From assembly GCA_037893245.1 (NCBI GenBank), contig JBAIAA010000603.1, positions 248,001 to 312,000 on the forward strand: a DNA stretch of 64,000 nt, in the 5' to 3' direction. This DNA comes from Crossaster papposus. Lineage: Eukaryota > Echinodermata > Asteroidea > Velatida > Solasteridae. Of this stretch, positions 22,955 to 46,610 are shown one piece after another. The translations under genes were made by a program, and so were the position numbers. Position 1 is the stretch's first letter; every line of letters begins with the position of its first letter. The notes under the pieces are model-generated. The model was not told where the DNA came from, ran no database searches, and worked only from the letters and a program-made list of their open reading frames with translations.

Positions 22955-24758
22955 ATATGCAACACGTCTGTCTCGTTACTATTGCCATCACGTTTCTTCT
23001 GTCAGCCTGGAACCGAAATAAGACATTCAATATATATTTAAGCAAATGCATAGCACCAGATGTTGGGGTGATTCACATTTTTAGTATATTAAATAGGCCT
23101 ACCTAAAGTAATAAAATTGGTGATCGGTGAATATTCAGGTGCAAATGTATAATAAAATTTAGATTTGTGGCGGCCATATTAAATTGTATCCATGACCATT
23201 ACCTCCAATCACGTCGTAACCTATTCCAAATGATTTATTTTGCCTAAAAAACATATAATAGAATTTCAAATAATTCAAATATCTCTTCTGACAGCGAATA
23301 TATGATGCATTACATATTAATGGCGGCCATCTTGGATTTTTGCACATTTAACACATTTCCGCAACAGTAATTTCTTAGGACTTTTAATATGTTATTCAGG
23401 ACACCTTATAGATGACCTCTGTGCCCAAATAAATTCTGTTGCATTTTTTTCCATTTCAAAAGTTAGTTTGCCTGGACTACTATATCCACCAGGGTTTTGC
23501 AAGAACTAGTTACGCGTGTCAAGAATAGACCGCCCGAACTCGGCCTATAACTGTAGAGTATGGGAACAATATTTGAAATCACACGTTGTAAATTCGCTGC
23601 TCCCGTGATTTTTTTTACAAGCCGTCCTAAAAGGACAGTCGCATTGCGAGTCGGAAATCTGGCTAAAAATTGTTTTCTTAAAAAAAACAATTTCTGAACG
23701 ATATTTGCACACCAAGAAGCTTACATTTTACTTTTCAAAACGCACCTCGTTAGAAAACGGAGACCAATTCAAACAAAAGAGGTAGGTTTTTATCTTAAGC
23801 TATCCGGAACTAGGAAATATCTGGCAGTAGGAAAACGACTGTACTACGAGTTGACTCGAGAGACATGGAATAATTAATTAACGCCCCACCTCTCCCAAAA
23901 TCCACCACTGGAAGAAAATGCCAAAACAGTTCATAAACGTGGTGAAACTGCAAGGAGAAATTTAACTCGTTCAAGTTCTGGTATCTCTGAAACTCCGATA
24001 GTCTCACTCCATCCAACGTTATCTAGCTCGTGCAGCAGATGCACGACGTACATGTACATGTGCACAAGACGCTGTTCCCGGGTACCCGGCTCGTGCAGTA
24101 CACGCATGGCCAACACACGAGCGTGCATAATCGCTGGTATCATGGTACATAGAAGTACACGTATTATGGCCATGGCCATATATGGGTTAGCCAAGGTGTA
24201 TTAATTGTACATGTACAATGTACATGTACTGCACGTGGACGACGTACGTTGTTCATGCATTTGGGCCACAGTGCGCGATGCATGGGGGTGGATTTGAATG
24301 GCGCTTTCGAGAACGTCGTCACAGGGGCGGAACATTTTAAAGTTTTATATTGTTTGTAGGCCTATTTTATAATTATAGTTTTCCATTTTTATAGATCTTT
24401 ATTTTTGATCACGTAAGTATTCAAGTACTTATGATAAGATGTGCGTATATATACTCTCAAATATAGGGGTGCTTTAGTATTGCAGCACCCCCACCCCAAA
24501 ATCCGTCCTAGGGGGGCGGCAGCACCCCCTGCACCCCCTGTTCCCGCGTGCCTGACGAGGGGAGTAGGCCGAATGGCAGAAACGTTTCAGTGTAGATTTT
24601 AGTAACAGGTTCCTTCTGGGGCTGGGAATTAGATACCACAACACTAATTACAGATAAGCTAGCAATCTGTATCATAATCTTGATTTTCATTTTTTGCTAC
24701 TTTATGCCCATTTCGTGGTAACAACTTCAGGTCACATATATCATTTTAACTCTTTTAG
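22955..24758. other. Non-coding stretch
   Basis: AT-rich with no exon seen. A palindrome-rich patch of TGTACATGTACA type words lies at about 24045-24250, and a C-rich patch (GCACCCCCTGCACCCCCTG) near 24520. Confidence 0.5.
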
Positions 24759-24835
24759 GGTAAAAAGATTACTAAGCAGCTCATCCACCAAGATCTTTTA
24801 TTAGAGCAACGTGGTGCCTTAATTGTTCTAAAATA

Positions 24836-25090
24836 ATGGAAGATCAAGAAAGTCCAGCATCATCCACACGATGTCACTCTCCACCAGTGGGGTCAGACTC
24901 GACAAGTGACCCAGAAACATCTTGGCCTATCGCCGATTGGATTTATCAAGTCGTGTTTCAAGAGCAAGAACGGCACTCCTCGTCAGCCGTCCATCTGTGC
25001 CTTTTCAAGAGCCAAGCTGACGGTACTAAAAGAGGTCTTCCCCAATCAGGAGCATTCCGTCCAGGGTTTAAGCCAATTTTCCCACATTTG
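24836..25090 (+). pseudogene. TRMO: TRMO exon with start of the TsaA-like domain
   Basis: The clear part (from about 24906) reads LSPIGFIKSCFKSKNGTPRQ, then PSICAFSRAKLTVLKEVFP and EHSVQGLSQFSHIW. This matches the N-terminal strand region of the TsaA/VirR-like domain of eukaryotic TRMO, which transfers a methyl group from SAM to N6-threonylcarbamoyladenosine at tRNA position 37; NGTPRQPS and LxQFSHxW are diagnostic. The donor GTGAGT follows TTTG at 25090. An ATG at 24836 opens a frame with MEDQESPASSTRC and a PxA-DW stretch, but it is one base out of register with the domain frame. Either a frame break lies before residue 35 or the real start is in an upstream exon. The 2-nt phase at the donor agrees with the next exon (W-ILFI). 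Confidence 0.75.
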
Positions 25091-26877
25091 GTGAGTCTCA
25101 AGACAGTCACTATGTAGATGTAGATGGTACCAAGGAAGTGTAGGATACTGTAGTTCTGAAGATGTTTTTAGATTCGGCCATCAGCCAGATTTGCATTTTC
25201 ACAATAACTGTTTCTTCCCAATGGCACATTGTATATTCTAGCTAATTTTGAATGTTATCACACTAACAACTGACAGGTATGGGTGGGATCAAGTCAGCTA
25301 GTGAAACCATATATCAGGCCAAAAAAACCAAATAAATTAGTTTCTCATCCTCGCGCACATCCTTTTTTGCTGCTGCATCAAAACAATTTGTTTATATTTG
25401 TATTTGTTTCGCATCGTCACTTTTCTCCCGATCTTAATTGTTCTCGTTTGCATTTTTTTTAGAAGAGTGAAGCCTTATTATTATCATATGACGCGACACT
25501 ATACAGTGTGGCAGGCCTGGAATTACAATTACAATTTGTTTAGGGAAAGGCCACTTTGGCCTTGGAGTATTCAAAATTTGGGAGGGCACCAAGGCCAGTA
25601 GGAAGGGCGCCAAGGCCAAAATTTGAAAATAAAAAGGGTATGTCGCTGTATATACATGTACCACTAAAATAACCAGACGAAGTCCGTGGACCCATTACCC
25701 CTATTTATTTCGCACACCGCTGATGCAGGCAGGTGAAAACTAAAGCAAAATACACAAAATAGTTATTATTAAGCATTATAATTTAAAGAAATACAAATGT
25801 GCAATAAAATAATTACATTAGGTTTGGAGAAAATTGGGCAGCACCTTGTCGGCAAAATCAGTTACAGAGGAGCAACAATCAATCAGTTATGAAAATAAAG
25901 AAACCCGTATATAAACTTACAATCGTTCCCGGGGTAAGGGATCGTCCGCACACACAGCGAGATAAACAGGAATTTACGGCGGCATTCTGGGGTGCTGCAC
26001 AAATAATATATACACGTATATAATTCAACAAATACCACTATCATTCTAGTAATTTGCAATTACTAACCCAAACTAAGAATTCATATTTGTTTCCCCGACG
26101 CACCATGAACTATAAAGGGCGTTGGCTCTGAGGAATGTTCGGATATTTCTAGTGTACATTAAAAGGCTTATAAACTAGAAGGCAAACAATTTAACAGCAA
26201 TATAAACCTTAAGATAAATGCTTCCATGTAAATTACATCTTCGGAAATAAACATGATATAAATCAAAGGTAAAAATACTTACAAATGGTTGACTACAGAA
26301 AGAATGTGTGAGTTGGTTGGGAGCGTGAACGCAACTGACTCAACCCCCCCCCGCGTGCCTCGGTGGTTAAGTGGGGCAACCAGAAATTACGTAATTACAT
26401 ACCAAACATGCTCAGACCTACGGCTTATGCAAATAAGAGAACAATCATTTAACAGATGGAAAAATACATAGCGGTGACGATAACAGGGTACGAAGGCCAC
26501 TTAGTTATGAAAGTTATAAAACAAACTACAACCAACGGCGAACTACTTTGTTGATTCATTACTTAAACACTAAAACAGGCCTCTTTATTGAACAAGTTTC
26601 CAAGATAATAACTATTGATCCGTTGAACATTGTTACTCTATTAAATTCTTGTAGTTTAATCCGAAAAGTTTTGGACGGTGAAGGGATTCATTCACTAAAA
26701 AAGGTTTTCTAGTCATGCGGTGCAACAATTCCACCAGAAGAGGGCGTTCAAACAACAGAGAGCGCCCTCTGTTGGTCAATGTTTTTATTTTAGACTGGTC
26801 CCTTGTTTAAAGACGTCGGGTGTTCGTGTACAACGCGAACGGGTGCCGATAGAGTCGCGAATGCGTTGAACGCACTG
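25091..26877. other. TRMO intron, first part
   Basis: Non-coding AT-rich sequence within the gene. No exon is recognised. An open frame at 26289-26471 has no family similarity. Confidence 0.5.
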
Positions 26878-27196
26878 ACCTCTATACATGGACAGATCAT
26901 CATTGTTCTATTTTGAAGTCGGCATGCGGAGAAGTGCAACATGGCGGACCCACGATGTCACTCTGTGAGCCAATGAAATGTCTAGGTGTTGGTACGATAC
27001 GTATTACGTAATGTTTATACATGTAAATACAAAACGTACAGAGTAAATCCACTAACCTAGGCTCTACACTGGACATTTCATTGGCTCACAGCAGTGACGT
27101 CTCGGGTCCGCCATGTTGCACTTCCAGTTCGCGCCGACTTCAAGTGTTAGCACAGCAGAATATGGACAATGATCCGTCCAGGTGTAGAGGTCAGTG
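26878..27196. mobile_element. ~320-bp palindromic MITE in TRMO intron
   Basis: The left arm (26878-26990) and right arm (27066-27196) are diverged inverted copies. Matching blocks include TGACCTCTA, GGACAGATCAT / ATGATCCGTCC, GAAGTGCAACATGGCGGACC and GAGCCAATGAAATGTC. The interior of about 75 bp has TACATGTA. It is a foldback element with no coding capacity. Confidence 0.7.
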
Positions 27197-28730
27197 GTTG
27201 AACGTAAACAATTTACGCTAGTGCAACTTCCTTTGACTCGTTCGAGCGGATTGCGCTGCACGTACAAACTTATCGCGGAAATTCCCATATGCAAATTAGG
27301 TGAACAGCGCCGCTCATTATGAGGTCATCGTACGTTCTCGCTTTACGCGCGTCATCGCCTTCGGCCACTTCCGGGTAGGTACGGACTCGTTTCAGTTTAA
27401 TGAATGAATCATTATGCATCGGGTACTGCACATGCGTAGTGATGGTATGAGAAAAAGCTAAGATGGCCGCTGTCTAGTGCTGAAAAAAGCTTCCGAATCG
27501 GTGGAGTTTGGGTGAGTTATGACAGTTTAAAAACTTTTTGCGTCTTCCTTTTTTTGAACTCAAAGTTCAGAGAGTCCATATTTGTAATAATGTTATTCTT
27601 TCTCACCAAATTTCTTTGGAAATCAAGCGATTTATTTCATTTGTTTAGCTGTCGAATGGTGTTACACACGTGGGTAATCGGATTGATAGCGCGATGGTCG
27701 CGAGCAATATTGCATGGCCATTTTAAGATGAAACTCCCAAAATTTGCCAATAATTCTCAAAGGATCACATGATAAACTACACGCGGCATGTGAACGCATC
27801 AAGTTACATCGATGCATTTTTATGGAAATTGAGCGGCGGCGCATCGTTAAATATAGAATGACTGGAGGGGAATGACCAGCAAATTGGCGGGACAATCTTA
27901 CGTCACAAAAGTCACTGATAATTTTGGGCATCAAATGAGTGCAAGTGCGCAGGCGTGCAAATTCCCGCATGATTTATGGGACAGGTTTGTAAAACTAACA
28001 CAAGTAAATAACGCGCTGGAAAACTGGTGTCGATTTTCCTTGATTTGCAGGTCAAGAATTGATCGTGAATACCTTAGAAGTTCGTTAACTCAGCTTGGAT
28101 ACATATGGAAGGTTATTTAGACGATTTGTGTGGATTTTGGCGACATTTTGAACCACATTCAAGACATAATCATTCGTCAATATTCTTCTGGCTCGGCCTC
28201 TAGTACCAGTAGCGCAAGATAATGCCCAAATGTTAAAAAAGTGATAACTAGAAGCCAGTAACTCGGTCTACACCACACCGTGTTTTGTCGCACCGAAAAA
28301 TAACTAGCTATTTACTTTACAAAATAGGGTCTGGAGCTAAAATTACTAGCCCAAATCAATATATCTTGGTATCAGTTTTCTTGTAGAAAGATTCTCCATC
28401 CATTGGTATAGGTAGTTTTGGCCTCATGGAAGTGGAAGTATGCTTGTTCGTTGAGATATTATGCTTGTTGGTTTTTTTGGGGGCCACCCTGTGTAAGTTT
28501 CTCTATACAAACACATCAAGCCAACGTCAAGCTCCCCAAAAATGTCCCCATCTTCCGCTTTTAAAAATAGTTAGGACGAGAAACATTTTTTTATTTGGCC
28601 TAACAGACCAGTTTTCACTGGTTGCGATGAGTTACCACTCAGCAATTCAGAATCAAGAACCATTGAGTTTTAGGTAAAATAAGTCTGGGACTTCAATAAT
28701 TGCGCCCCAAATTGTATGTGTAATTTGCAG
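27197..28730. other. TRMO intron, last part
   Basis: No exon or recognisable repeat. It ends in TAATTTGCAG, the acceptor of the following exon. Confidence 0.5.
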
Positions 28731-28890
28731 GATACTATTCATCTCCACAAGAATGGTGATGGGCGGTTCACCAAGGCCAAAGTGAAGCCGCCTCGTTTAG
28801 ACGGAGTCAAGGTTGGGGTTTTCGCCATCCGCAGTCCCCATCGACCCAATCCTATCGGCCTGACCTTAGCCAAGCTGGATAGAATCCAAG
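28731..28890 (+). pseudogene. TRMO: TRMO exon with catalytic-domain core
   Basis: After TTTGCAG the first codons continue W-ILFI from the previous exon. One base is then missing before HKNGDGRFTKAKVKPPRLDG, and the exon continues VKVGVFAIRSPHRPNPIGLT and LAKLDRIQ. The RSPHRPNPIGL motif is the signature of the TsaA/TrmO fold and is expected near the SAM site. The break is a single-base loss inside TTCATCTCCACAAG. The GT donor after ATCCAAG is GTATTC. No later TRMO exon was found in the window; instead the last ~50 bases of this exon open the long tandem array. Confidence 0.8.
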
Positions 28891-29043
28891 GTATTCATAA
28901 CCCCATCGACCCAATCCTATCGGCCTGACCTAATAGCTCAGCTGAATAGAATCAACGGTATTCATAACCCCATTGACCCAATCCTACCGGCCTGACCTAA
29001 TAGCTAAGCTGGATAGAATCCACGGTATTCATATAATAATAAT

Positions 29044-29325
29044 AATTGGGGAGGCTAATCATCCTTACTCGCAGCTGGTGTGCTGAATTGCGAAGGATGC
29101 AAGTGACACCCAATGACTGTTCATGTGTCACGTCACATTAAAGAACCATTTTTTCAAAAGAACCTAAAAACAAATGTAAACATTGGTTTTTATGTTGAGT
29201 ATTTCCTAACGTTTCCAAAAATGTATAGTTTAGCAAATCTACACAAACAGTGAACGAAACTTTCAATATGTACATTATGAACCTGACTTGGAGGCAAGGG
29301 CTTTAAACACAAGCCACCCAACCAA
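29044..29325. repeat. Array spacer, first of ten copies
   Basis: The spacer begins with ATAATAATAATTGGGGAGGC and runs through GCAGCTGGTGTGCTGAATTG, CATGTGTCACGTCACATTAA, a CCATTTTTTCAAAAGAACC stretch and GTACATTATGAACCTGACTT. Other copies start near 29655, 30504, 31560, 32036, 32713, 33385, 34058, 34600 and 35077. They differ by a few substitutions and by the number of AAT triplets. The spacer shows no TRMO similarity and no coding signal. Confidence 0.9.
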
Positions 29326-30598
29326 TCCTATCGGCTTGATCTGTTAGCTAAGCTTGATAGAATCCAAGGTATTATATTCCCATCGACCCAGTCCTATCGG
29401 CCTGACCTTAGCCAAGCTGGATAGAATCCAAGGTATTCATAACCCCATCGACCCAATCCTATCGGCCTGACCTAGTAGCTAAGCTGGATAGAATCCAAGG
29501 TATTCATAACTCCATCGACCCAATCCTATCGACCTGACCTAATAGCTAAGCTGAATAGAATCAACGGTATTCATAACCCCATTGACCCAATCCTACCGGC
29601 CTGACCTAATAGCTAAGCTGGATAGAATCCACGGTATTCATATAATAATAATAATTGGGGAGGCTAATCATTCTTACTCGCAGCTGGTGTGCTGAATTGC
29701 GAAGGATGCAAGTGACACCCAATGACTTTTCATGTGTCACGTCGCATTAAATAACCATTTTTTTCAAAAGAACCTAAAAACAAATGTAAACATTGGTTTT
29801 TATGTTGAGTATTTCCCAACGTTTCCAAAAATGTATAGTTTAGCAAATCTACACAAACAGTGAACGAAACTTTCAATATGTACATTATGAACCTGACTTA
29901 GAGGCAAGCGCTTTACACACAAGCCACCTAAGCTAAGCTTGATAGAATCCAAGGTATTATATTCCCATGGACCCAGTCCTATCGGCCTGACCTTAGCTAA
30001 GCTGGATAGAATCCAAGGTATTCATATTCCCATCGACCCAATCCTACCGGCCTGACCTAATAGCTAAGCTGGATAGAATCCAAGGTATATCCCTATCGAC
30101 CCAATCCTATCGGCCTGAGCTAATGGCTAAGCTGAATAGAATCAACGGTATTCATAACCCCATTGACCCAATCCTATCGGCCTGACCTAATAGCTAATCT
30201 TGATAGAATCCATGGTATTCATAACCCCATCGACCCAATCCTACCGGCCTGACCTAATAGCTAAGCTGGATAGAATCCAAGGTATATCCCAATCGACCCA
30301 ATCCTATCGGCCTGAGCTAATAGCTAAGCTGACTAGAATCAACGGTATTCATAACCCCATTGACCCAATCCTATCGGCCTGACCTAATAGCTAAGCTTGA
30401 TAGAATCCAATGTATTCATAACCTCATCGACCCAATCCTACCGGCCTGACCTAATAGCTAAGCTGGATAGAATCAACGGTATTCATATAATAATAATAAT
30501 AATTGGGGAGGCTAATCATCCTTACTCGCAGCTGGTGTGCTGAATTGCGAAGGATGCAAGTGACACCCAATGACTTTTCATGTGTCACGTCACATTAA

Positions 30599-30977
30599 AG
30601 GTAGTATACACCATTTGCAGAAATCGAAAATATTTACTACTGAATTATTAAGAAATACCTTACTCAATTGAAAGTAAATAATGATTCTAGGCATTCAGCA
30701 AAAGGATTGCGCTAGATATCCTGTAATTATTCAAAAACATTGAATTTTATGAAGAAAAATTCGCTCTCGCCGGACGGCGAGAGCGAAAAAACAAAGATAA
30801 CATAAGAATAACTGCTCGACCCCGGTTGAAAACAAACGTTGTTTTTCGTGCTTTTCTCGGCATCCATGATTGTAAAACTTCGGAAAAGTCAGTTAAACGA
30901 TATTTACTATGAAATACAACCCCCCAAATCTACCCATTCATGATAATTCAAGCAATTACCAATGGTGTATACTACCT
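30599..30977. mobile_element. 379-bp TTAA-flanked MITE in array spacer
   Basis: It starts AGGTAGTATACACCATTTG and ends CCAATGGTGTATACTACCT, flanked on both sides by TTAA (30595-30598 and 30978-30981). It interrupts the third spacer and is absent from the other nine, so the insertion is visible by comparison. TTAA target use is known for piggyBac and Kolobok families; the termini do not decide between them. A small internal hairpin CGCTCTCGCCGGACGGCGAG lies near 30767. Confidence 0.9.
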
Positions 30978-33900
30978 TTAAAGAACCATTTTTTCAAAAG
31001 AACCTAAAAACAAATGTAAACATTGGTTTTTATGTTGAGTATTTCCTAACTTTTCCAAAAATGTATAGTTTAGCAAATCTACACAAACAGTGAACGACAC
31101 TTTCAATATGTACATTATGAACCTGACTTGGAGGCAAAGGCTTTACACACAAGCAACCCAACCCAATCCTATCGGCTTGATCTGTTAGCTAAGCTTGATA
31201 GAATCCAAGGTATTATATTCCCATCGACCCAGTCCTATCGGCCTGACCTTAGCTGAGCTGGATAGAATCCAAGGTATTCATATTCCCATCGACCCAATCC
31301 TACCGGCCTGACCTAATAGCTAAGCTGGATAGAATCCAAGGTATATCCCAATCGACCCAATCCTATCGGCCTGAGCTAATAGCTAAGCTGACTAGAATCA
31401 ACGGTATTCATAACCCCATTGACCCAATCCTATCGGCCTGACCTAATAGCTAAGCTTGATAGAATCCATGGTTTTCATAACCCCATCGACCCAATCCTAA
31501 CGGCCTGACCTAATAGCTAAGCTGGATAGAATCCACGGTATTCATATAATAATAATAATAATTGGGGAGGCTAATCATCCTTACTCGCAGCTGGTGTGCT
31601 GAATTGCGAAGGATGCAAGTGACACCCAATGACTTTTCATGTGTCACGTCACATTAAAGAACCATTTTTTCAAAAGAACCTAAAAACAAATGTAAACATT
31701 GGTTTTTATGTTTAGTATTTCCTAACGTTTCCAAAAATGTATAGTTTAGCAAATCTACACAAACAGTGAACGAAACTTTCAATATGTACATTATGAACCT
31801 GACTTAGAGGCAAGCGCTTTACACACAAGCCACCCAACCCAATGCTATTGGCTTGATCTGCTAACTAAGCTTGATAGAATCCAAGGTATTATATTCCCAT
31901 CGACCCAGTCCTATCGGCCTGACCTTAGCTCAGCCGGATAGAATCCAAGGTATTCATATTCCCATCGACCCAATCCTACCGGCCTGACCTAATAGCTAAG
32001 CTGGATAGAATCCACAGTATTCATATAATAATAATAATTGGGGAGGCTAATCATCCTTACTCGCAGCTGGTGTGCTGAATTGCGAAGGATGCAAGTGACA
32101 CCCAATGACTTTTCATGTGTCACGTCACATTAAAGAACCATTTTTTTCAAAAGAACCTAAAAACAAATGTAAACATAGTTTTTATGTTGAGTATTTCCTA
32201 ACATTTCCAAAAATGTATAGTTTAGCAAATCTACACAAACAGTGAACGAAACTTTCAATATGTACATTATGAACCTGACTTAGAGGCAAGCGCTTTACAC
32301 ACAAGCCACCCAACCCAATCCTATCGGCTTGATCTGTTAGCTAAGCTTGATAGAATCCAAGGTATTATATTCCCATCGACCCAGTCCTATCGGCCTGACC
32401 TTAGCTAAGCTGGATAGAATCCAATGTATTCATATTCCCATCGACCCAATCCTACCGGCCTGACCTAATAGCTAAGCTGGATAGAATCCAAGGTATATCC
32501 CAATCGACCCAATCCTATCGGCCTGAGCTAATAGCTAAGCGGACTAGAATCAACGGTATTCATAACCCCATTGACCCAATCCTATCGGCCTGACATAATA
32601 GCTAAGCTGGATAGAATCCAAGGTATTCATATTCCCATCGACCCAATCCTACCGGCCTGACCTAATAGCTATTAAACTGGATAGAATCCACGGTATTCAT
32701 ATAATGATAATAATTGGGGAGGCTAATCATCCTTACTCGCAGCTGGTGTGCTGAATTGCGAAGGATGCAAGTGACACCCAATGACTTTTCATGTGTCACG
32801 TCACATTAAAGAACCATTTTTTTCAAAAGAACCTCAAAACAAATGTAAATATTGGTTTTTATGTTGAGTATTTCCTAACGTTTCCAAAAATGTATAGTTT
32901 AGCAAATCTACACAAACAGTGAACGAAACTTTCACTATGTACATTATGAACCTGACTTGGAGGCAAGCGCTTTACACACAAGCCACCCAACCCAATCCTA
33001 TCGGCTTGATCTGCTAGCTAAGCTGGATAGAATCCAAGGTATTATATTCCCATCGACCCAGTCCTATCGGCCTGAACTTAGCTAAGCTGGATAGAATCCA
33101 AGGTATTCATATTCCCATCGACCCAATCCTACCGACCTGACCTAATAGCTAAGCTGGATAGAATCCAAGGTATATCCCTATCGACCCAATCCTATCGGCC
33201 TGAGCTAATAGCTAAGCTGACTAGAATCAACGGTATTCATAACCCCATTGACCCAGTCCTATCCGCCTGACCTTAGCCAAGCTGGATAGAATCCAAGGTA
33301 TTCATATTCCCATCGACCCAATCCTACCGGCCTGACCTAATAGCTAAGCTGGATAGAATCCACGGTATTCATATAATAATAATAATTGGTAAGGCTAATC
33401 ATCCTTACTCGCAACTGGTGTGCTGAATTGCGAAGGATGCAAGTGACACCCAATGACTTTTCATGTGTCACGTCACATTAAAGAACCATTTTTTCAAAAG
33501 AACCTAAAAACAAATGTAAACATTGGTTTTTATGTTGAGTATTTCCTAACGTTTCCAAAAATGTGTAGTTTAGCAAATCTACACAAACAGTGAACGAAAC
33601 TTTCAATATGTACATTATGAACCTGACTTGGAGGCAAGCGCTTTACACACACGCCACCCAACCCAATCCTATCTGCTTGATCTGTGAGCTAAGCTTGATA
33701 GAATCCAAGGTATTATATTCCCATCGACCCAGTCCTATCGGCCTGACCTTAGCTAAGCTGGATAGAATCCAAGGTATTCATATTCCCATCGACCCAATCC
33801 TACCGGCCTGACCTAATAGCTAAGCTGGATAGAATCCAAGGTATATCCCAATCGACCCAATCCTATCGGCCTGAGCTAATAGCTAAGCTGACTAGAATCA

Positions 33901-35690
33901 ACGGTATTCATAACCCCATTCACCCAATCCTATCGGCTTGACCTAATAGCTAAGCTTGATAGAATCCAAGGTATTCATAATCCCATCGACCCAATCCTAC
34001 CGGCCTGACCTAATAGCTAAGCTGGATAGAATCCACGGTATTCATATAATAATAATCATTGGGGAGGCTAATCATCCTTACTCGCAGCTGGTGTGCTGAA
34101 TTGCGAAGGATGCAAGTGACACCCAATGACTTTTCATGTGTCACGTCACATTGAAGAACCATTTTTTCAAAAGAACCTAAAAACAAATGTAAACATTGGT
34201 TTTTATGTTGAGTATTTCCTAACGTTTCCAAAAATGTATAGTTTAGCAAATCTACACAAACAGTGAACAAAACTTTCAATATGTACATTATGAACCTGAC
34301 TTGGTGGCAAGCGCTTTACACACAAGCCACCCAACCCAATCCTATCGGCTTGATCTGTTAGCTAAGCTGGATAGAATCCAAGGTATTCATATTCCCATCG
34401 ACCCAATCCTATCGGCCTGACCTAATAGCTAAGCTGGATAGAATCCAAGGTATATCCCAATCGACCCAATCCTATCGGCCTGAGCTAATGGCTAAGCTGA
34501 ATGGAATCAACGGTATTCATAACCCCATCGACCCAATCCTGCCGGCCTGACCTAATAGCTAAGCTGGATAGAATCCACGGTATTCATATAATAATAATAA
34601 TTGGGGAGGCTAATCATCCTTACTCGCAGCTGGTGTGCTGAATTGCGAAGGATGCAAGTGACGCCCAATGACTTTTCATGTGTCACGTCACATTAAAGAA
34701 CCATTTTTTTCAAAAGAACCTAAAAACAAATGTAAACATTGGTTTTTATGTTGAGTATTTCCTAACGTTTCCAAAAATGTATAATTTAGCAAATCTACAC
34801 AAACAGTGAACGAAACTTTCAATATGTACATTATGAACCTGACTTGGAGGCAAGCGCTTTACACACAAGCCACCCAACCCAATCCTATCGGCTTGATCTG
34901 TTAGCTAAGCTTGATAGAATCCAAGGTATTATATTCCCATCGACCCAGTCCTATCGGCCTGACCTTAGCCAAGCTGGATAGAATCCAAGGTATTCATATT
35001 CCCATCGACCCAATCCTACCGGCCTGACCTAATAGCTAAGCTGGATAGAATCAACGGTATTCATATAATAATAATAATTGGTAAGGCTAATCATCCTTAC
35101 TCGCAACTGGTGTGCTGAATTGCGAAGGATGCAAGTCACACCCAATGACTTTTCATGTGTCACGTCACATTAAAGAACCATTTTTTCAAAAGAACCTAAA
35201 AACAAATGTAAACATTGGTTTTTATGTTGAGTATTTCCTAACGTTTCCAAAAATGTATAGTTTAGCAAATCTACACAAACAGTGAACGAAACTTTCAATA
35301 TGTACATTATGAACCTGACTTGGTGGCAAGCGCTTTACACACAAGCCACCCAACCCAATCCTATCGGCTTGATCTGTTAGCTAAGCTTGATAGAATCCAA
35401 GGTATTATATTCCCATCGACCCAGTCCTATCGGCCTGACCTTAGCTAAGCTGGATAGAATCCAAGGTATTCATATTCCCATCGACCCAATCCTATCGGCC
35501 TGACCTAATAGCTAAGCTGGATAGAATCCAAGGTATATCCCAATCGACCCAATCCTATCGGCCTGAGCTAATGGCTAAGCTGAATAGAATCAACGGTATT
35601 CATAACCCCATCGACCCAATCCTACCGGCCTGACCTAATAGCTAAGCTGTATAGAATCCAAGGTATTCTTATCCCAATCAACCCAAGTCA

Positions 35691-36538
35691 TTCAGTCGTA
35701 AAGTCAAGTCACTCTTATTTCATTATTCAAATGAACTTGTGACAAAACAATTCAGAGATGAAACTTCAGATATCAATCGGAAATGCACCTTTTAGACCTT
35801 CAATTTTTCACATCTTATTTTACTTTGGCATTCTCCTCTGTATTGACTTGCGATAGACTCGACTGAAACACTGTAAACAAAAGCGTAGAACACAGAATGT
35901 ACCTTTACTTTCATAGAGCGTGGCAAAAATATATGGAACACTGGGTAGTTTTGAAAAGGAATAGGAAAGTTACCAAAGAAACAACAGTTACTGTTACAGT
36001 TTTATTTATTAATGTCACACTCCTTAAAAAAAAACACTGACCAGCCAAATCTGGCTTATGAGCCAGTGACATGTACATACTGTATTAAAAGATACAAAAA
36101 GGCACACAAAACAACATACGCCAAAAATAAAACAAAAAAAAGTGTAATATTTAAATTGGTTATCATCATAAATGAGCGGCAATGATATTGTGTTAGCATA
36201 TTTACCAGTCTGGCAACTACAGTTACCATTAGACATAACATAAATATATTTATCATACATGGACATATTAACTCTTCTAAGCAGAAGTCACTTTTAGGAC
36301 TAGTTCTTTAACAGCACACATATGCACGTACTGTGTGTTTTGTGCATAGAGTGCATTGAACGTGTGGGCAGAATTGTGTTCCCCCATAGGAACACATGCA
36401 AAAGGGTGGGAAACCAACATATAATGTGCACCAACCAAAGTGCCATATTTTGTTTTACCTAACTACCTACCCTGTTTACAAATTTCATGTAATCAAAAGC
36501 AGGAATTTAAAAAAAAAATTTGCTGTATTTTATTGCAG
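35691..36538. other. Non-coding stretch after the array
   Basis: Ordinary AT-rich sequence. No TRMO continuation is seen. Confidence 0.45.
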
Positions 36539-36689
36539 AGATCAAGAAAAGAAACCTGTTTCCCATCACAAGATATGAAGAGCTAAATCATTGGAAGTGT
36601 TTTCCGTCGAAACACTCTTTGAAGACCTCGGGATTGACTCCGACACTGTTCATAAGTGAAGACCAAGCCTGGAATTTGACCCCAAACTT
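36539..36689 (+). CDS. Possible exon, unrecognised gene
   Basis: The stretch lies between TATTGCAG and CTTGTAAGT, is open in one frame (IKKRNLFPITRYEELNHWKC, then SLKTSGLTPTLF and EDQAWNLTP) and has good splice-site context. It could be the first visible exon of the gene that continues at 37751. However, its end phase (2) does not match the phase-0 start there, so an exon may be missing, or this is chance. Confidence 0.3.
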
Positions 36690-37750
36690 GTAAGTTCATA
36701 GACAAGTTATTCTTTAGTCCCGCACCAAAAATTGCTTAACCCTAACCCTCCAGGGTATTTTGGCTAGACAGCCTCCTACATGTACACGCAGCAAAGTGCA
36801 GCAACGGTCCAAATAACATGGTAGTTACAGTGCAGAAACATCCATCAGGTCAAAAATCTTAAGGTCAAAATGCCCTAGAGTAACTGGTCACTGAACGCAG
36901 CCGATTCATCATTGGCATTGTTCAATGGGGACTAGCTCTCAATAGTCTTAGACTGTGGTATTAATACACTGGTGTCGACAGCAGAATGTATCAAAGTGCA
37001 CTAGATTTTATTTTTTTGATGCATTGTGCTGCGTGTAGCAGGGATAGGGTTAAGCAGAAAAACCTTGCTTAGTGAAAACCAACTTACCAGCCACAACTCT
37101 ACATGATGTATATTGTTTGTTATTTTGCATTTTGTTTGTTTGTTGATTGGTATTTGTTGTTAGCTTGCATACATGTAACAGTTACATGGAATTTTGGCTA
37201 GTAATTTGATTTTAGAAATAAGCAAGGTTTTTGGTGCTTCAGCAGCTCGATGAAATTGGCCCCTGGTCTTAGAAAATTCATAAAAAATATTGGAAATTAT
37301 ATAAAATAAAGGAATTGGTTTTTGTTATACATGTAGTTAAATATATTTATACACAGTTTGCCTTTTTTAAATTTATTTTTTAAACTAATATCCGTTGCCA
37401 ACATTTGTTGTAGGTGAAGATCTTATAATTATTTGCATTTAGAAATTACTGTCACTCAAGTGATTTTGACGTTACAAAACATTTCCTGTAAAATTCACTG
37501 GAATTAAAATGTGTTTATTTTTCACGAATTCACAGCACGAAAACTCTGAATCCCCTGATGTCACAAATTCGCATTCGCTTTCGCACCGAACGAATATGAA
37601 ACGAATATGAATTAGGAAAAGAGGGGGCCAAAGGAGTAATTTTTATTTGTTGACAATTGTTGACAGTAGATTGTCCCAAAGTCAGAAGGGCCAATATCCA
37701 CTGTAAAAGTATGTCGTCATAACATCGGCCGTCGCTGACTTCCTCCGCAG
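36690..37750. other. Non-coding stretch
   Basis: AT-rich with no exon. Two CCCTAA units near 36740 are too few to call telomeric. Confidence 0.45.
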
Positions 37751-37912
37751 CTAGAGAAACCAAAGACGACCGAAGATGATGTCTCCAAATCCAAGGACTC
37801 CCGAGAGTACTTCCAGCAGGATCTAAAGATGCTGTCCAGCTATTGATCAGCTAGAGAGGAAGGGAAGGAGGAGCAGTTAGCTGAGGAGGAAGACCTACCG
37901 CCTCTCTTACAG
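37751..37912 (+). pseudogene. Unrecognised gene (locus C), exon 1
   Basis: The acceptor is CGCAG, the donor GTAAGG, and the length is 162 bp (phase 0 to 0). It reads LEKPKTTEDDVSKSKDSREY, then FQQDLKMLSSY, an in-frame TGA, then SAREEGKEEQLAEEEDLPPL. It is highly charged and probably disordered or coiled. The frame is the same on both sides of the TGA, so the only defect is a nonsense codon. No family is recognised. Confidence 0.5.
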
Positions 37913-38391
37913 GTAAGGGTGGGATCAAATTTGATAGCGCAACTGCAGCTGAAAATCAAACCCCCATACTCTACATCTGTATTTCACCCCTACTCCTCAC
38001 CTCCATTCCCCACTTGGCAGATACCGGCAGTATATCAGTTTCATTGTTATTATTGATTATATAACTGACATACAGATCCTTGTCATTTTATTGGTTGAAC
38101 TCGCATCACCTGACATTCGTTATTGCTCCCATTCACGCCGGGGCTCAAAAAGTCCCATTTGCCCATATTATTCAACAGCTAGGATCATTCATTCTTGTTC
38201 TCATCACTAATTTTGAACAGCAGAGCGCCGCACACTAAAACCCGGGGAGAAGGTTAATATTTTCCAAGGAGAACAAAACACAGCGCTCCTTAAAAATTCC
38301 ACAGGAGAAGTAATTTCTTCAGTTTGTTTTGTAATGCGAACCGGAATGCGTCCGTTGATTTTGTGTCATGGAAAAATCTATACTACAGTAC

Positions 38392-38474
38392 TGTAACGTA
38401 GATTTGTCCTGGGGTCGACACAACACACAAGAAGGAATCTTGACTCAAGTGTTCCTTGGTGTCCGGTGAATACC
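38392..38474 (-). repeat. Truncated 3' LTR of the gypsy element
   Basis: TGTAACGTAGATTTGTCC through GTGAATACCTG matches the start (plus-strand sense) of the right LTR with two visible differences, then similarity stops. The rest of this LTR and the polypurine tract have been lost. Confidence 0.85.
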
Positions 38475-38499
38475 TGAGGGAGCCGCTCCTCGCTCCGGC

Positions 38500-38780
38500 T
38501 TGGCTCGTCACGGTCTGCACGAGGCCGGGGGGAACACTCCGAGCGGAGGTGGCCCCCGGCGGTCGAGGTAGCCCCTCCTGCTCTTGTCGTGGCCGACTGG
38601 CCGACTCGTCCCGTTCTGCACGAGGTCGGGGGGACCGCTCCGAGCGGAGGTGGTTCCCCGGCGGTCGAGGTAGTCCTTCTTGTTCTGGTCGTGGCTGGCT
38701 GGCCGACTCGTTCCGTTCCGTACGAGGGGACCGGGAAGGTCGCTCCGCGCGGAGGTGGTCCCCCGGGTTGTCTCTTGGCC
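38500..38780 (-). repeat. ~117-bp tandem repeats in gypsy 3' region
   Basis: The block CCGAGCGGAGGTGG...CGGTCGAGGTAG...TCGTGGC...GCCGACTCGT repeats about 2.5 times. On the minus strand it encodes a repeated Arg/Glu/Pro-rich peptide (for example SASQPRPEQEGLPRPPG). The bias suggests a repeat of the element's terminal frame rather than a conserved domain. Confidence 0.7.
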
Positions 38781-38837
38781 GGGGGCGGTGACGCGGGCCT
38801 GGCAGCGGCCGGTTGACCCCGTCCACCGCGGAGAAGG

Positions 38838-40210
38838 TCAGGGCTCCCTTGTCGGGAGAGGCGAGGCGGAGAAAGCTCGGGGCCGGCAGGATTGAATCTC
38901 TAGGGCGTCCGCCGCCGCCATCACCCCGGCCACCAACCCACCCTGGCAGTACCGATGGTGGCGCCCCCGGACGACTTCCCGGTAGAAATACAGGCCGCAG
39001 CCTCGCTCGCACACGTACGGGCGTTCCGCGTGGAGCCCCTCGCACGCAGTGCGGATGTGCCTGCGGCGGTTGCTGCTGCGGGTAAAAGTCTTTCCACAGT
39101 GAGGACACACCACGGGAGCCATCCTGCGGGGGGAAGAAAGTTTGGTTAACGCAAGACAATATCGGCTAGGCCGGACTACTTTCCGGCCGGCGCGAGTATA
39201 CCGTTCGGTGCCTGGTTCCGTCGGCGGAGAAGGCGACTGAGCACCCTCCCCCTCAGGTTCGTCCGGCCCCAGATCTGGGCCCGTCTCCTCCAACCCGTCA
39301 AGAGCGACACCCGCCTCCGCAACGGGTGGAAACGCCTCCGCTTCTGACCTTTCCGAAGGTAGTTCCACCACATCTGACCGGTCATTCCTGTCCCCTGGCG
39401 GCCCCGCTGAAGGAACCCGGGGCTCTGGGCTAGATGCTGGTGATGGCTGCCCGCCTGGAGGCGGCTGTCCTTCCTCTGTGACTAGGCTGGGCTCCACTGG
39501 GTGGCCCCCTGCAGCCCGTCTCCACCAGTCCACCTGGGCGTCACCCAAGTACGGTTTTAGCCGGTTGAAATGGACCACCTTGGCCTTGGCGCGAGGCAAC
39601 CTCTGGATCCGGTAGGTGACGTCGTCGGTCCTCTTCAATACCACAAAAGGCCCGTCCCACCAGCACTGCAGCTTGGGCGTGCGACCCATCTTCTTGAAGG
39701 GGGTGTAGAGCCACACGGCACGTCCGGGCTCGTAGCCGGCACCCTCCGCCCGACGATCGTAATGTTGCTTCTGGTATGTCTGGCTCCCCTGCAGATGCTG
39801 TCGAGCGAACTTGTGCGCGCGCTCCATCTTCGCCCTCAGCTCGTCTATGTACTCCTGCTCCGTCGCCTCTACCGTCGGCTCCTCCGGCTGTCCCACCACC
39901 AAGTCCAACAGAAGTCGCACCTCTCGGCCGAGCATGAGCATGTTCAGCTTGAACGGTACGCCATCATGACGTATGGGAGGTGTTCGTCCCAGTCATCCTG
40001 GTTCTCTCGCACGAACAGGCTTAACATCGTCTTGACGGTGCGGTTGAACCGCTCCACCATTCTGTCGGACTGGGGATGGAACGGCGTCGTGCGGGTCTTG
40101 AGGACGCCCAGTAGACGGCAGGTGTCTTGGAACAGTCGGGCTTCGAACTCCCTCCCCTGATCCGTGTGGATCTCGAGGGGGGTGCCGAAACGGGTGATAA
40201 CCTGCTCCAC
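38838..40210 (-). pseudogene. Gypsy integrase 3' end plus C-terminal zinc fingers
   Basis: 40210-39944 encodes the integrase core end: HTDQGREF and TPFHPQSDRMVERFNRT hold the second Asp and the Glu with 35 residues between them. It stops after MMAYRSS; about two dozen bases seem deleted, then 39941-38838 resumes in another frame with NMLMLGREVRLL, a helical segment and WDGPFVVLKRTDDVTYRIQR (GPF/Y module). Unusually, after a Pro/Glu-rich linker the frame continues with CPHCGKTFTRSSNRRRHIRT, a C2H2-type finger, and a further Cys/His cluster (CERGCGLYFY...HHRYC). Such fingers may act in chromatin targeting, as chromodomains do in other gypsy integrases; that role is inference. Confidence 0.8.
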
Positions 40211-40339
40211 GAGTGAGGGCTGTCTGATCCGGGATCGGAAAAGCCTCCCGTCTCCCTGCTGGCCTCAAACAATGACTCCCTGTGTAGTCCATCGCTCCCT
40301 GAGAGGGCGCTGTTCTGGTGACCTGTCTCCGGACGACTC

Positions 40340-40960
40340 CCCGCCCCCGCTGCGTCGACGAACACAACCCGCGAACGCTCCGAGCGGAGCGACCCGACAG
40401 CCGCGCTGCCGTCTACGGCCCTGGGCTGCCCCTCCTCGGGCTGAAAACCCACCGGTCTCGAATATGGGCTGTAGGTGTCCTGGCGATGCCCCGCCCCCGC
40501 TGCGCTGACGGGCACGGCTTGGCTCGCTCCGAGCGTTGCGAACCGCCTGCCGCGCCGTCGCCTACAGCACGGGCCAGGCCCCCCACGGACTCGATATCAT
40601 TTGTATAGGACAACTGTGGGATGTCCCGATGAGGCCCCGCTGGGGTAGCGTAGTAAACCCTGGGAGTGTCCCGACAAGGCCCCGCCCCCGCCGCATTAAC
40701 GGCCACAGCTTGGGATCGCCCCGTGCGGAACGAACCGTCTGCCGCGCCGCACAGGCCGGGCCCCCCATGGACTCGATATTTTTTGTATAGAACAACTGAG
40801 GATTGTCCTGATGAGGCCCTTACCCCGCTACATCGACGGGCACAGCTCGGAATTGCTCCGCGTGGAACAAAACGTCTGCCGCGCCGCCGTCTACAGCACG
40901 GGCCGGGTCCCCCCCCAGACTCGGTAGCAACCCCAGACAATTTATGGGGAAGGGCGCCCT
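40340..40960. repeat. Diverged ~150-190-bp repeats in gypsy interior
   Basis: About four copies share CCCCGCCCCCGC, a GACGGGCAC or equivalent, GCTCCGAGCG or GCCCCGTGCGG, CTGCCGCGCCG and ACTCGATAT-type blocks. They replace the expected protease/RT region. There is no coding motif. Confidence 0.7.
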
Positions 40961-41081
40961 CACTCCGGATCTGAGTGGACGCACCGTCGCCCCCCAACCA
41001 ATGGGACATGTCCCTAAATTCCCCGCTATCATTCCCCAATTCCTCCCCCAGGAAACACCCTGACTCCCAGGAAACCACAGC

Positions 41082-41106
41082 CCCCCCCCCCCCCCCCCCC
41101 CCCCCC
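41082..41106. repeat. Poly-C run in gypsy element
   Basis: About 25 C on the plus strand, just inside the gag frame, where it would read as polyglycine on the minus strand. Confidence 0.85.
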
Positions 41107-41111
41107 AGAGC

Positions 41112-41273
41112 TCTCCGGTAAATCCTTAAAGAAGGCCTCTAACTCCTCCGGCGTGATGCACGGAGTGCCTGAACACTCTCTAGACTGGTCCCCGTTCCCC
41201 GGGCCCATACCCTGGCCTGCCTTCTCGCCGTGGGGCGAGTTGGCTGCCATGCCATCGTGGTTTTGCGAAAACA
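41112..41273 (-). pseudogene. Gypsy gag N-terminus
   Basis: From ATG at 41273 the minus strand reads MFSQNHDGMAANSPHGEKAG, then PCITPEELEAFFKDLPESS, then glycine from the poly-C run. Its position 56 bp inside the LTR/primer site fits a gag start. No capsid or zinc-knuckle part remains. Confidence 0.6.
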
Positions 41274-41328
41274 TGAACACTTCACCTGGTCTTTTTCCCG
41301 TCCTCCTGTATCCCACCGCTGCCACCAA

Positions 41329-41617
41329 TGTAACGTAGATTTGTCCTGGGGTCGACACAACACCCAAGAAGGAATCTTGACTCAAGTGTTCCTTGGTTTC
41401 CGGTGAATACCTGCCGTTTATTGTGGACTCTTGCCTCTAAAACACTAACCTGAAGTTCACACAACAACGCGGTCTCTAGAACTCGTTAGAACCGGTTCGG
41501 CGTACGCACGATCCAAAGGCGGGTTTCCGGGGCGCACCAGCAGGAGCCACCAGGGCGATCCCACCACCGTGGAATCGCTCCAGCGCCCTCTACCGTCAAA
41601 CCGGCACGGACGCTACA
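41329..41617 (-). repeat. Full 5' LTR of the gypsy element
   Basis: 289 bp with TG...CA ends (TGTAACG on the plus-strand left, CGCTACA on the right). The inner side is followed on the minus strand by TTGGTGGCAGCGGTGGGAT, which fits a tRNA primer site. Confidence 0.85.
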
Positions 41618-42342
41618 GTACTAAGGTACTGTTTTTTTACGTACACTTGCGGTATACTCACGCAGTATGTGTGCCGCGTTAGCCATGCGCGCCAATGTAT
41701 GAGCTAGCTATAGCTAGCTGGCCATGAACATCACAAATAAACACTGTATGTACAGGAATGACACGATCCTATCTCTGCAATGCATGGCGCGTGCACTGTT
41801 GTGTACATGTACATGTACGTACTGGTACGAGTGCGTGTACAATATACCTGTAAACAACCCCAGTACAGAACTGTAGCTGTGCACGTGTATCTATACTGAA
41901 TGTACATGGTGTTCCGTACAAAAATACCAGGTGTGAGTTTCAGTGCGCCTAATCGACCATGAGTGCCTGACCCGTGCAATACGTTTTGTGGTAAAATAAA
42001 AGTGGTACATTATTGTATATGGCACTGAGACTAAACAAAGAAGTACTGCATGCGCGCGCAATGTAAACAAATGTGTAGCTAGCGCGTGCATTAGCAAACT
42101 TTGAAAGCGACGTCTTTTGAAAGCTTTGAAAGCAACATACACATGTAGGCCGAAACAGCTCTTGTTTTTGTTATTTTCTTTTCTTTCTTTTTAAGGAGAG
42201 CGAATAGCTCTTCTTAAATCAACATCGGGATTTAAGGAGAGCAATTTTAAGCTCTCCTCATTTTTGTTTAAATGAAGGACTTGTATACTATTGTATCTTT
42301 TTGTGTGTCTGAGCAGTTATCATTAAGTGTATTTCTCTGCAG
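41618..42342. other. Locus C intron
   Basis: Non-coding. TACATGTACATGTAC is near 41810, and a small hairpin with GGAGAGC / GCTCTCC is at about 42195-42260. Confidence 0.5.
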
Positions 42343-42443
42343 GCAATATCTCTTATGGACAGAGTAGAGACAGGGAGGGAAGAGTTAAAGAAACAGCTGA
42401 AGATGATAGAAGAGAAACGGGCCATCCAAGAGAGAAATGAACG
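42343..42443 (+). CDS. Locus C, exon 2
   Basis: Between CTGCAG and GTACGT. It is unbroken: AISLMDRVETGREELKKQLK, then MIEEKRAIQERNER. The heptad spacing of L/M/I with E/K/R indicates a coiled coil. At 101 bp it leaves two bases, which the next exon completes, so the phases agree. Confidence 0.65.
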
Positions 42444-42589
42444 GTACGTTGTCAATCAGGAGGTGTGATGATGGTGTCTGTGTGCAAATAACTCGCTGTA
42501 TAATGGTTATGAAGATAGAAAGCTAGGTAGGATTGCTGAATGCCTAATTGCTGCCATATCCCTTGAGCTAAACATGAAGACGCACCGTG

Positions 42590-43040
42590 TTTATTGCAAG
42601 CCCACTTGAACCAGAATAAAGGGGAAGATATACTATCTCGTCTCATCCTCAACCGGCTACAGTCACCCGTTATTCACAATATCATCCCAAAAAGTCATTG
42701 TGCTTTTGTGCCTCGCGTGGCACAGTTGGCATGATGTTTTCGGGTCAACAACTCCAGGAAAAGTGCAGAGAACAACATCCTGACCTCTTCATTGTCTTCA
42801 TCGACCTGACAAAGGCCTTTGACTCAGTCAGCCAGGAAGGTCTGTGGAAGCTTCTGTACAGGGCTGGCTGCCCATCCAAGATAATTAACATCATCAGATT
42901 CTTCCACGATGGTATGGTTGCCCGTGTAAGAGGTTGCGGCTCTACGTCCATCTAGCCCATTTCCTGTTACCAACGGCACTAAACAGGGCTGTGTCCTAAT
43001 ACCATTGCTCTTTAGCAGTGTTTTTTCATTCATGCTCCGT
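42590..43040 (+). pseudogene. LINE reverse transcriptase fragment
   Basis: Shifting frames give GEDILSRLILNRLQSPVIHN, RGTVGMMF, QQLQEKCREQHPDLFIVFID, LTKAFDSVSQEGLWKLL and NGTKQGCVLIPLLFS. These are RT motifs up to TKQGC (motif 4 region), placed as in RTE/CR1-type LINEs of the clade whose endonuclease matches the scrap at 65-198. The catalytic Y-x-DD region is absent. It is inserted in a locus C intron. Confidence 0.8.
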
Positions 43041-43462
43041 TATGCTCTCAACAACTGCACGCGGGGATAATGATTCAGTTTTGCACTGACAGCGGTGGTG
43101 TATTTCATTTAAATTGTTGCTCCGACAAAGTCGTGCGCCTTATCGCGCTAAACATTGCGACAACATGAAGGCTATGTAAACTGTTGAATTAGATGGTACC
43201 AGACTAATTATTAATTAGAGCTGACTGGTATTAATTTGTAATTAACTTTATTTCATTATTTTTAAGCTCCAAAAAGGAAGATTTTACTTCACTTTCAATT
43301 TAAGATGGCCGATCCGTGAATATTGCGTAATGTGAGGACATTTCCTGCTGCACCTCATCATCACTTTTTGTTTGAAAACTTGGCATGATTATGAGCTTAA
43401 AAACATTTAGGGTAACTGGATTTTGAAGTCTCTGATTTCTCCCACCTAAAAAAACCCCACAG

Positions 43463-43628
43463 TATTGAGATTTGTGAGCCCACCCACCCTCAGCCTGCCA
43501 CCGTCACCACTAGAATGCCTAACAGACCAGTTGTACGTACCTCTGATGTGCGTGTGTCGGAGCGTGTCAGCTTGTCATCTATCACACTGAAACTCAACAC
43601 CACCGTCTTCAATGAACTCAACGATGAC
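43463..43628 (+). CDS. Locus C, exon 3
   Basis: The acceptor is CCACAG and the donor GTGAGT. The first base completes the Arg codon of exon 2. It reads IEICEPTHPQPATVTTRMPN, RPVVRTSDVRVSERVSLSS and ITLKLNTTVFNELNDD. It is unbroken and ends in phase 0. No named domain is recognised. Confidence 0.65.
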
Positions 43629-43660
43629 GTGAGTTGTTTTTCAGAGAATAGGCTCTGTCT

Positions 43661-43860
43661 ACGAAGTAAACACAAATGTCACGTGATACGCGCGACCCAC
43701 TTCTGGCATTTTTTACAATGTAACTCAAAGCCCATAGTTAATACACACGAATAGAGTTTTCACAAAGTGACGCTGTCTGTGTGTATTAACTATGGGCTTT
43801 GCATTACTTTGTGAAAATGCCAGAAGTGGGTTGTATCACGTGACATTTGTGTTACTTCGT
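43661..43860. mobile_element. 200-bp palindromic MITE
   Basis: Inverted arms run from ACGAAGTAAACACAAATGTC (left) to GACATTTGTGTTACTTCGT (right), with internal matching blocks CACTTCTGGCATTTT and AGCCCATAGTTAATACACAC. Each arm is about 85 bp around a short centre. There is no target duplication I can be sure of. Confidence 0.85.
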
Positions 43861-44274
43861 GGGGACGGTGACAAAATTAGGGGTTCAATTTTCCATGTCC
43901 ATGTTACATCAGACATAGGAATTTGTTTTTTTAATTCAAAAACGTTGAAGTCAATTTCAGTGACACTTGCATGGTAAATTACTTGGTCATGTGTAACCGG
44001 GACATCAACAAATATCACAATTTTAGACCCCCTTTTAGACCCCCTTATTTATGGACTAACCAATGGAGAATCAGTTCTGTTCTTGAAAATCAAATTTCTA
44101 TCGGATGTGTAAACATCATTTTTGCTATAAATACCACCACAAAGTGGTACAAAAGAGAATGGACAGAAATTAAACAAATGTCACTTTGCTCCTAAACAAT
44201 TTGTAAACATTTCTCTTTACCAGTTCGTATTATAAAAAAACGTGTCTACATCCAAATTTGTTCCTGAATTCAAG

Positions 44275-44455
44275 CAGAGCAAGGCCATAAATATCTGTCA
44301 GCGACCGGCTCGCAGCGAGCAAGGCCAGAAATATCAGGGTGTGCTACCCACAGATGCCGGCCTAAACCTGACTCGGATCAAGGTTCGTGAAAAACAATCC
44401 CGCGCTTGGGCCTAATCAATGTCAAAATAATCCTTGCGTGAACTGGTTAAGATAT
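44275..44455. repeat. Dispersed repeat, copy 2
   Basis: It shares AAATATCTGTCAGCGACC, GGCCAGAAATATCAGGGTGT, GTGCTACCCACAGATG and GTGAAAAACAATCCC with 19050-19175. An extra GGCTCGCAGCGAGC palindrome is inserted in this copy. Confidence 0.75.
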
Positions 44456-44590
44456 TGTACTTGTTACAGACGTACATGTATGTATTTGCAACATTATATT
44501 TCTAGTGTTATGCAAAAGACTTCTTAGTATAAAGGCTCACTGTAGATAAACCAACTTAGAATCGACCATTTGAATTTGTTTGCTTTACAG

Positions 44591-44705
44591 GTCAGTGGCA
44601 ACACTATCTAGAAACTGCACAGTAACTTGTTCCGTGGTCAAGAGATTAACAAAGTATACAGAGATTATGAAGACATTGCCTACTGACCACTTAGCTTATG
44701 ATCAG
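44591..44705 (+). CDS. Locus C, exon 4
   Basis: After TTTACAG. One frame is open: SVATLSRNCTVTCSVVKRLT, then KYTEIMKTLPTDHLAYDQ, ending in phase 0 before GTAGTT. That matches the phase-0 start of the exon at 52323 (DEFMEHSASYHA). Its own start leaves one extra base relative to exon 3, so an exon is missing or a one-base break lies here. A diverged second copy lies at 45006-45055 plus 50350-50407. Confidence 0.55.
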
Positions 44706-44782
44706 GTAGTTATCTCACTGACCCCTGCCTTCTAAACTTTGCCTCGCCACTACCCCACCCATGAACTGGACATTTAACCTTT

Positions 44783-44965: not shown

Positions 44966-45005
44966 ATATTCTCAGTTATTTCCCTCCTAAACTATTCCCC
45001 GCCTC

Positions 45006-46600: not shown

Positions 46601-46610
46601 CCACTTCCTT

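Follow-up and report, generated by a model that had tools for sequence, protein, structure and literature searches.

The 'mirage' minisatellites of amphioxus are tandem repeats that extend across an exon-intron boundary (PMC3087553, PMC3902484). In the portions of these reports available to us, their hosts are Adh3, the globin genes BflGb6 and BflGb9, PGBD5 and the troponin C gene; the repeats are described as unstable in length and as leaving splicing undisturbed, and they are suggested as a route to new introns. The subject of the present analysis is a tandem array in the sea star Crossaster papposus, contained in a 64-kb stretch of contig JBAIAA010000603.1 (64,000 nucleotides of the forward strand; this whole stretch is referred to as the window). 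The array lies at the 3' edge of exon 2 of a TRMO gene copy. It is probably a mirage-type minisatellite with two levels of repetition, standing beside a TRMO copy that is itself probably inactive.

Comparison with described exon-boundary repeats

Like the amphioxus mirages, as far as the available parts of their descriptions go, the sea-star repeats span an exon-intron boundary and adjoin a genuine one, and many copies keep splice signals. Unit lengths are also alike: 10-72 bp in the Adh3 mirage, 60 and 108 bp in that of PGBD5, mostly 63-67 bp in the sea star. In the BflGb9 mirage, as in the sea-star array, it is the 3' boundary of an exon that is duplicated. Three features by which a mirage would be recognized are present, namely a boundary-spanning unit adjoining the authentic boundary, a unit length between 10 and 160 bp, and retained splice signals. 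The two differ in size, since the sea-star array comprises 56 monomers over ~6.8 kb whereas the BflGb6 haplotypes have 6 and 3 units. Unlike the lancelet mirages as described in those parts, it is also two-level, carries ~285 bp of probable intron, and has a host gene that looks broken. The higher-order unit (477-845 bp) is longer than the reported mirage unit range (10-160 bp). The initial annotation had called an array of this type unusual; the mirages provide a named precedent, but the sea-star array stands apart from it in size, in its two levels and in its host lineage. It would thus be a variant of the mirage type in another lineage. The literature searched yielded no exon-boundary minisatellite from an echinoderm, the mirage reports found being concerned with lancelets. 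Exact patterns for the monomer and the spacer gave 0 and 0 matches among IMG/VR viral contigs, which is a weak test as an animal repeat is not expected there.

In human duplicated genes, variable internal tandem repeats occur at exon-intron boundaries and can alter gene structure (PMC2812944). They average four 30-bp units (160 bp) and lie in segmental duplications; the available part of that report does not mention a higher-order structure. The CapA satellite of platyrrhine monkeys, whose suggested source is an intron of NOS1AP (cited in PMC8210747), resembles the sea-star array in being a tandem repeat whose seed was a single-copy part of a gene. However, according to the part of that source at hand, CapA would be intron-derived and is a true satellite, whereas the sea-star array is local within the 64-kb window. 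An abalone kinase gene contains a minisatellite with 27-bp units (PMC6905558), which was set aside because, in the accessible part of its description, it is located inside an intron.

Exon-boundary minisatellites are a proposed source of new introns. A two-level case in a sea star would suggest a wider occurrence of the process and an ability to build satellite-like higher-order arrays, and it would offer a datable model of how a gene seeds a satellite. Should the TRMO copy really be dead, the question would also arise whether growth at an exon edge damages genes.

Architecture of the array

A 61-base query, made of the exon tail and 11 bases of intron, has 56 blastn matches, all on the + strand between 28841 and 35671; outside that interval it has none in the window. 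A separate anchor count likewise gives 56 monomers, and their spacing is mostly 63-67 bp, in agreement with the estimate of about 56 monomers of about 65 bp made in the initial annotation. The E-values of the matches run from 9e-28 to 3e-8 (55 of the 56 at E<=1e-10), while 100 random 61-mers drawn from 1-28060 and 36000-48060 have at most 3 matches at E<=1e-10 (median 1), the self-match counted. Because of this difference, a chance origin of the 56 matches is excluded.

The following features make up the array:
28841-35686, + strand: composite array of 56 monomers in 11 blocks with 10 intron-like spacers (blastn, anchor count)
28841-28901, + strand: monomer 1, the authentic exon 2 tail (50 bases) with the first 11 intron bases and the donor (blastn, anchor count)
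29033-29314, + strand: first ~285-bp spacer copy, probably the original intron 3' of exon 2 (blastn, variable sites)
starts near 29642, 30482 (split), 31549, 32025, 32701, 33373, 34046, 34588 and 35065, + strand: further spacer copies (blastn)
35672-35686, + strand: right end of the array, a truncated monomer ending ...ACCCAA, with the unrelated flank GTCATTCAGTCG from 35687 (sequence)

Monomer 1 at 28841 carries the end of exon 2 and its GT donor, as had been claimed. At the donor position, GT is kept in 56/56 copies and AAG/GT in 32/56, the exon itself counted. The array had been taken for a simple satellite-like run whose unit includes only ~14 bases of intron. The number of monomers holds, but not the single run: 11 blocks (of 3, 5, 9, 6, 3, 6, 6, 6, 4, 3 and 5 monomers) alternate with 10 copies of a ~285-bp spacer unrelated to the monomer, nine of them unsplit and one split by an insertion. 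The repeat therefore has two levels and also carries ~285 bp of probable intron. Distances between successive spacer starts are 477-845 bp, or 1,059 bp across the copy with the insertion.

Sorted by eye, the monomers fall into classes that recur, with exceptions, in the order F-A-B-C-(D)-E-spacer. Mean identity within a class is 0.95-0.96 (0.86 for F, pulled down by one truncated copy), and mean identities between classes A-F are 0.73-0.90. The assignment of these labels by eye would count against the ordered pattern, but a second test is independent of them. It considers only position (first or second after a spacer, last before a spacer; 10 monomers per position, 30 of 56 in all): monomers in the same position are 0.920 identical, against 0.783 for different positions, and none of 10,000 label shuffles (0/10,000) reaches the observed value. 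Because ordered classes recur and the position test agrees, the array is a higher-order repeat.

The spacer

With the unsplit copy at 31541 as blastn query, the other eight unsplit spacers show 97.5-98.2% identity to it, and the split spacer aligns in two pieces (100% and 96.6%). Each of the nine unsplit copies has at least one private variant. The intron part of the last monomer of a block continues unbroken into the spacer (GTATTCATATAATAATAAT...; GTATTCATATAATAATAATAATTGGGG), and most spacers end ...GCCACCCAA ahead of the next monomer. At the right end, the truncated monomer reads ...TCAACCCAA and is followed by GTCATTCAGTCG. Since the intron part of the last monomer runs into it without a break, the simplest reading is that the spacer would be the start of the original intron, the flank from 35687 its continuation, and the neighbourhood of ACCCAA the site of exchange. 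Several points weigh against this reading. The step that makes the spacer an old intron is drawn from one locus, ACCCAA is only 6 bp long, and an extra CCCAA is present at 8/10 spacer-monomer joints.

Other identities for the spacer were considered and set aside. Rfam finds no known RNA gene in 24000-40000 (0 matches at gathering thresholds). The fold of one spacer does not surpass that of shuffled sequences (z-score -0.77; 48/200 shuffles fold as well). Against a mobile element, the inverted repeats of >=10 bp are all internal to the spacer and none frames it, and no copy occurs elsewhere in the window; this last rejection is tentative.

Direction and order of events

The exon tail encodes HRPNPIGLTLAKLDRIQ, identical to the corresponding part of the TRMO proteins of Patiria and both Asterias species. 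Apart from the exon, the only full-length monomers without a frame-breaking 2-bp insertion are 10 class-A copies. These are also nearest to the exon (mean identity 0.932; monomers m05 and m50, 0.955). All ten (10/10) carry AGT (S) in place of the exon's AAT (N), and N at this site is invariant among the aligned orthologues. It is the exon, therefore, that has the orthologue state, from which copying would have run from exon to array. That the array copies derive from the exon, and not the exon from the array, is well supported by this comparison, and the proposal that the array grew from the end of the exon gains accordingly.

The proposed course of events begins with a ~65-bp segment, made of ~50 bp of exon, the GT donor and ~10-15 bp of intron, which would have been tandemly duplicated several times, its copies then diverging. 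In a second step, suggested by the higher-order pattern, unequal exchange or a similar mechanism would have duplicated monomers and the next ~285 bp of intron as a block, up to a series of ten spacers. ACCCAA, which recurs at most of the joints between spacer and monomer and again where the array ends on the right, may mark the exchange point. The spread of blocks looks younger than that of monomers because the spacers are 97.5-98.2% identical while the monomer classes are 0.73-0.90 identical to each other. Thus, barring gene conversion, the monomers probably multiplied first and the blocks later; against this order, gene conversion that homogenized the spacers could give the same young look. 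The third step, the insertion of a TTAA-flanked element resembling a miniature inverted-repeat transposable element (MITE) into one of the spacers, came after the multiplication of the blocks:
30599-30977, no strand assigned: MITE-like insertion of 379 bp in spacer copy 3, with TTAA duplicated at 30595-30598 and 30978-30981

Its arms have 21/21 complementary bases with TTAA included. The element is present in 1/10 spacers and not in the 9 others; because of this, it arrived after block multiplication. Most likely, the array has no function of its own. Partial relatives of the MITE-like element (78%, blastn of the window) are located at 53585-53831 and 60307-60553.

State of the TRMO copy

Three features of the gene copy are relevant to its state:
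24836-24838, + strand: ATG of MEDQESP..., matching an internal Met of Patiria TRMO (MESRESP) (three-frame translation)
24927-25090, + strand: conserved portion of TRMO exon 1 (LSPIGF to SHIW), with donor GTGAGT, ending in phase 2 (TG/G) (tblastn, local TRMO profile hidden Markov model, HMM)
28731-28890, + strand: TRMO exon 2, with acceptor TTTGCAG and donor CAAG/GTATTC, frameshifted (Pfam TrmO_N, alignments, splice and frame check)

Nine query proteins were used in the tblastn search of the window for TRMO, and four of them have rows among the matches listed. Exon 1 is found with E-values of 2.5e-25 to 2e-28 (TRMO of Patiria, Acanthaster and Asterias rubens) and with the local HMM at 7e-24. 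This HMM was built from 69 of the 97 protein matches to the TRMO exon listed, namely those longer than 300 amino acids among the first 79. Among the 97, the best are from Patiria miniata (90%) and from Asterias rubens, Asterias amurensis and Acanthaster planci (88%). On the downstream frame of exon 2, TrmO_N (PF01980) scores 53.7 bits against a Pfam cut-off of 26.8. Splicing of exon 1 (TG/GTGAGT) to exon 2 (TTTGCAG/G) gives the junction codon TGG (W), as in SHVW-ILF of sea stars. The initial annotation had seen no TRMO exon besides the one at the array; exon 1 is nonetheless there, upstream at 24927-25090 and in a splice phase that matches exon 2.

Exon 2 had also been regarded as functional. 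It is, however, one base short in a conserved Phe codon (the F of ILFIFHKN) when compared with eight aligned orthologues: it reads ATA CTA TTC ATC and then the codon that lacks a base. FH is found at the site of this break in 8/8 of the aligned orthologues. As assembled, the spliced exons 1 and 2 read ...SHIWILFISTRMVMGGSPRPK*, the stop being the 18th codon past the junction Trp, and no open frame runs across the TRMO exons. A second frame problem is probable in exon 1. Its likely ATG (24836) is in another frame than SPIGF, whose own frame lacks an ATG after the stop that precedes it. The stretch upstream of the conserved part of exon 1 that matches the N-terminus of Patiria contains three in-frame stops.

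Later TRMO exons were not found in the window, including the 28 kb past the array, either among the tblastn matches listed or with the HMM, whose sole match past position 144 of 355, both strands considered, has an E-value of 8.1. The tblastn queries for 3' exons were the C-terminal parts of five echinoderm proteins. Their best match (E 0.05) is a candidate for exon 3 or a later exon at 45882-46004, with 41 residues, an internal stop and a position in a variable linker, and was taken as noise.

An inactive TRMO copy is favoured because of the frameshift in exon 2, the probable frameshift in exon 1 and the failure to find a downstream exon in the window, and inactivity seems on balance the better account of the sequence. 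Several observations speak for the other side. Apart from the indels, the coding sequence looks constrained: over the 107 compared residues of exons 1 and 2, there are 10 differences from Patiria (10/107), 13 from Acanthaster, and 19 and 20 from the two Asterias species, and just two substitutions fall at sites otherwise invariant in six compared orthologues. By these counts the sequence is probably closer to Patiria and Acanthaster. The long N-terminus of Patiria is absent from the annotated Acanthaster protein and is therefore perhaps dispensable as coding sequence. The window may end before the missing 3' exons, and the TRMO copy could be alive but assembled with an error, or be an allele broken very recently.

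These observations bear on the alternative that the same mirage-type array sits in an intron of a TRMO gene that is alive. The frameshift would then be due to misassembly or to a rare allele, exon 3 would lie past the 64 kb, and the array would be spliced out together with the very long intron to which it belongs. We consider this alternative unlikely, although it deserves to be weighed. Besides the conserved coding sequence, it draws on the donor GT kept in 56/56 copies (AAG/GT in 32/56) and on amphioxus, where the accessible parts of the reports have mirages not disturbing splicing (PMC3087553, PMC3902484). It must, however, accommodate two separate frame problems (the exon 2 deletion and the out-of-frame ATG of exon 1) and the absence of any later TRMO exon found in the 28 kb past the array. 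Nor do the large duplications in the window (see below) speak for frequent indel errors. The 3.34-kb copies show few indels, with 12 gap positions in each of two alignments (6,709 and 3,366 bases), and the other large duplication has 0 gap positions in 5,697 bases, a comparison in which errors common to all copies would stay hidden.

A further possibility is that the array is a nascent satellite, born from the exon edge, whose growth helped to kill the TRMO copy that had seeded it. This growth would then have contributed to the loss of the gene through dozens of 5' splice sites in competition and a longer intron, all passed on together. This causal role of the array appears rather improbable.

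It is highly improbable that the array arrived here with a mobile element or a dispersed satellite that had picked up and amplified a fragment of a TRMO exon. Oyster Helentron elements are reported, in the part of the source available, to have satellite-like repeats (PMC7492417), and the window holds several remains of mobile elements. However, exon 1 lies upstream in the right order and with a matching splice phase, which makes this a TRMO locus, or a large part of one, rather than a lone fragment. Moreover, monomer and spacer are not found elsewhere in the window, and 28600-36000 contains no inverted repeat of >=40 bp, although shorter ends may be present.

Least credible of all is an array created or inflated by repeat misassembly: the tandem 6.7-kb duplication at the end of the window, 100% identical over 5,697 bp, can be an artefact, and one mirage in the amphioxus draft genome was, in the part of the report at hand, aberrantly assembled (PMC3087553), but misassembly yields no diverged copies, and here the copies diverge in ordered classes (within-class means 0.86-0.96), with a private variant in each of nine unsplit spacers and a private insertion in the tenth. 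The exact monomer copy number may still be wrong. The array is thus best regarded, with the reservations given above, as a two-level mirage-type minisatellite at the 3' edge of TRMO exon 2.

Other mobile elements and repeats in the window

Remains resembling a long terminal repeat (LTR) retrotransposon lie at 38838-40264 on the - strand. They comprise Integrase_p58_C (55 bits) and a C2H2 zinc finger, together with rve at 27.2 bits, under its cut-off of 32.6. The element is presumably of the Gypsy type. Near it, at 38504-38766, is a 102-bp tandem repeat. A reverse-transcriptase fragment at 42620-42952 matches RVT_1 with 24.9 bits, which is less than its Pfam cut-off (29.6).

A ~3.34-kb unit is present three times in tandem at 8015-18060, its copies showing 99.4-99.7% identity when aligned. 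At the other end of the window, 51582-57278 and 58304-64000 form a tandem duplication with a period of 6,722 bp. The two copies are 100% identical along the 5,697 bp that reach the window end, and the duplication is either very recent or an assembly duplicate. Arrays of a 16-bp unit are present at 52726-53585 and 56329-56586 in inverted orientation (GTCCGACGCCTCATAA type and CCCTATGTTCCCCAGT type), their arms being 77-98% complementary.

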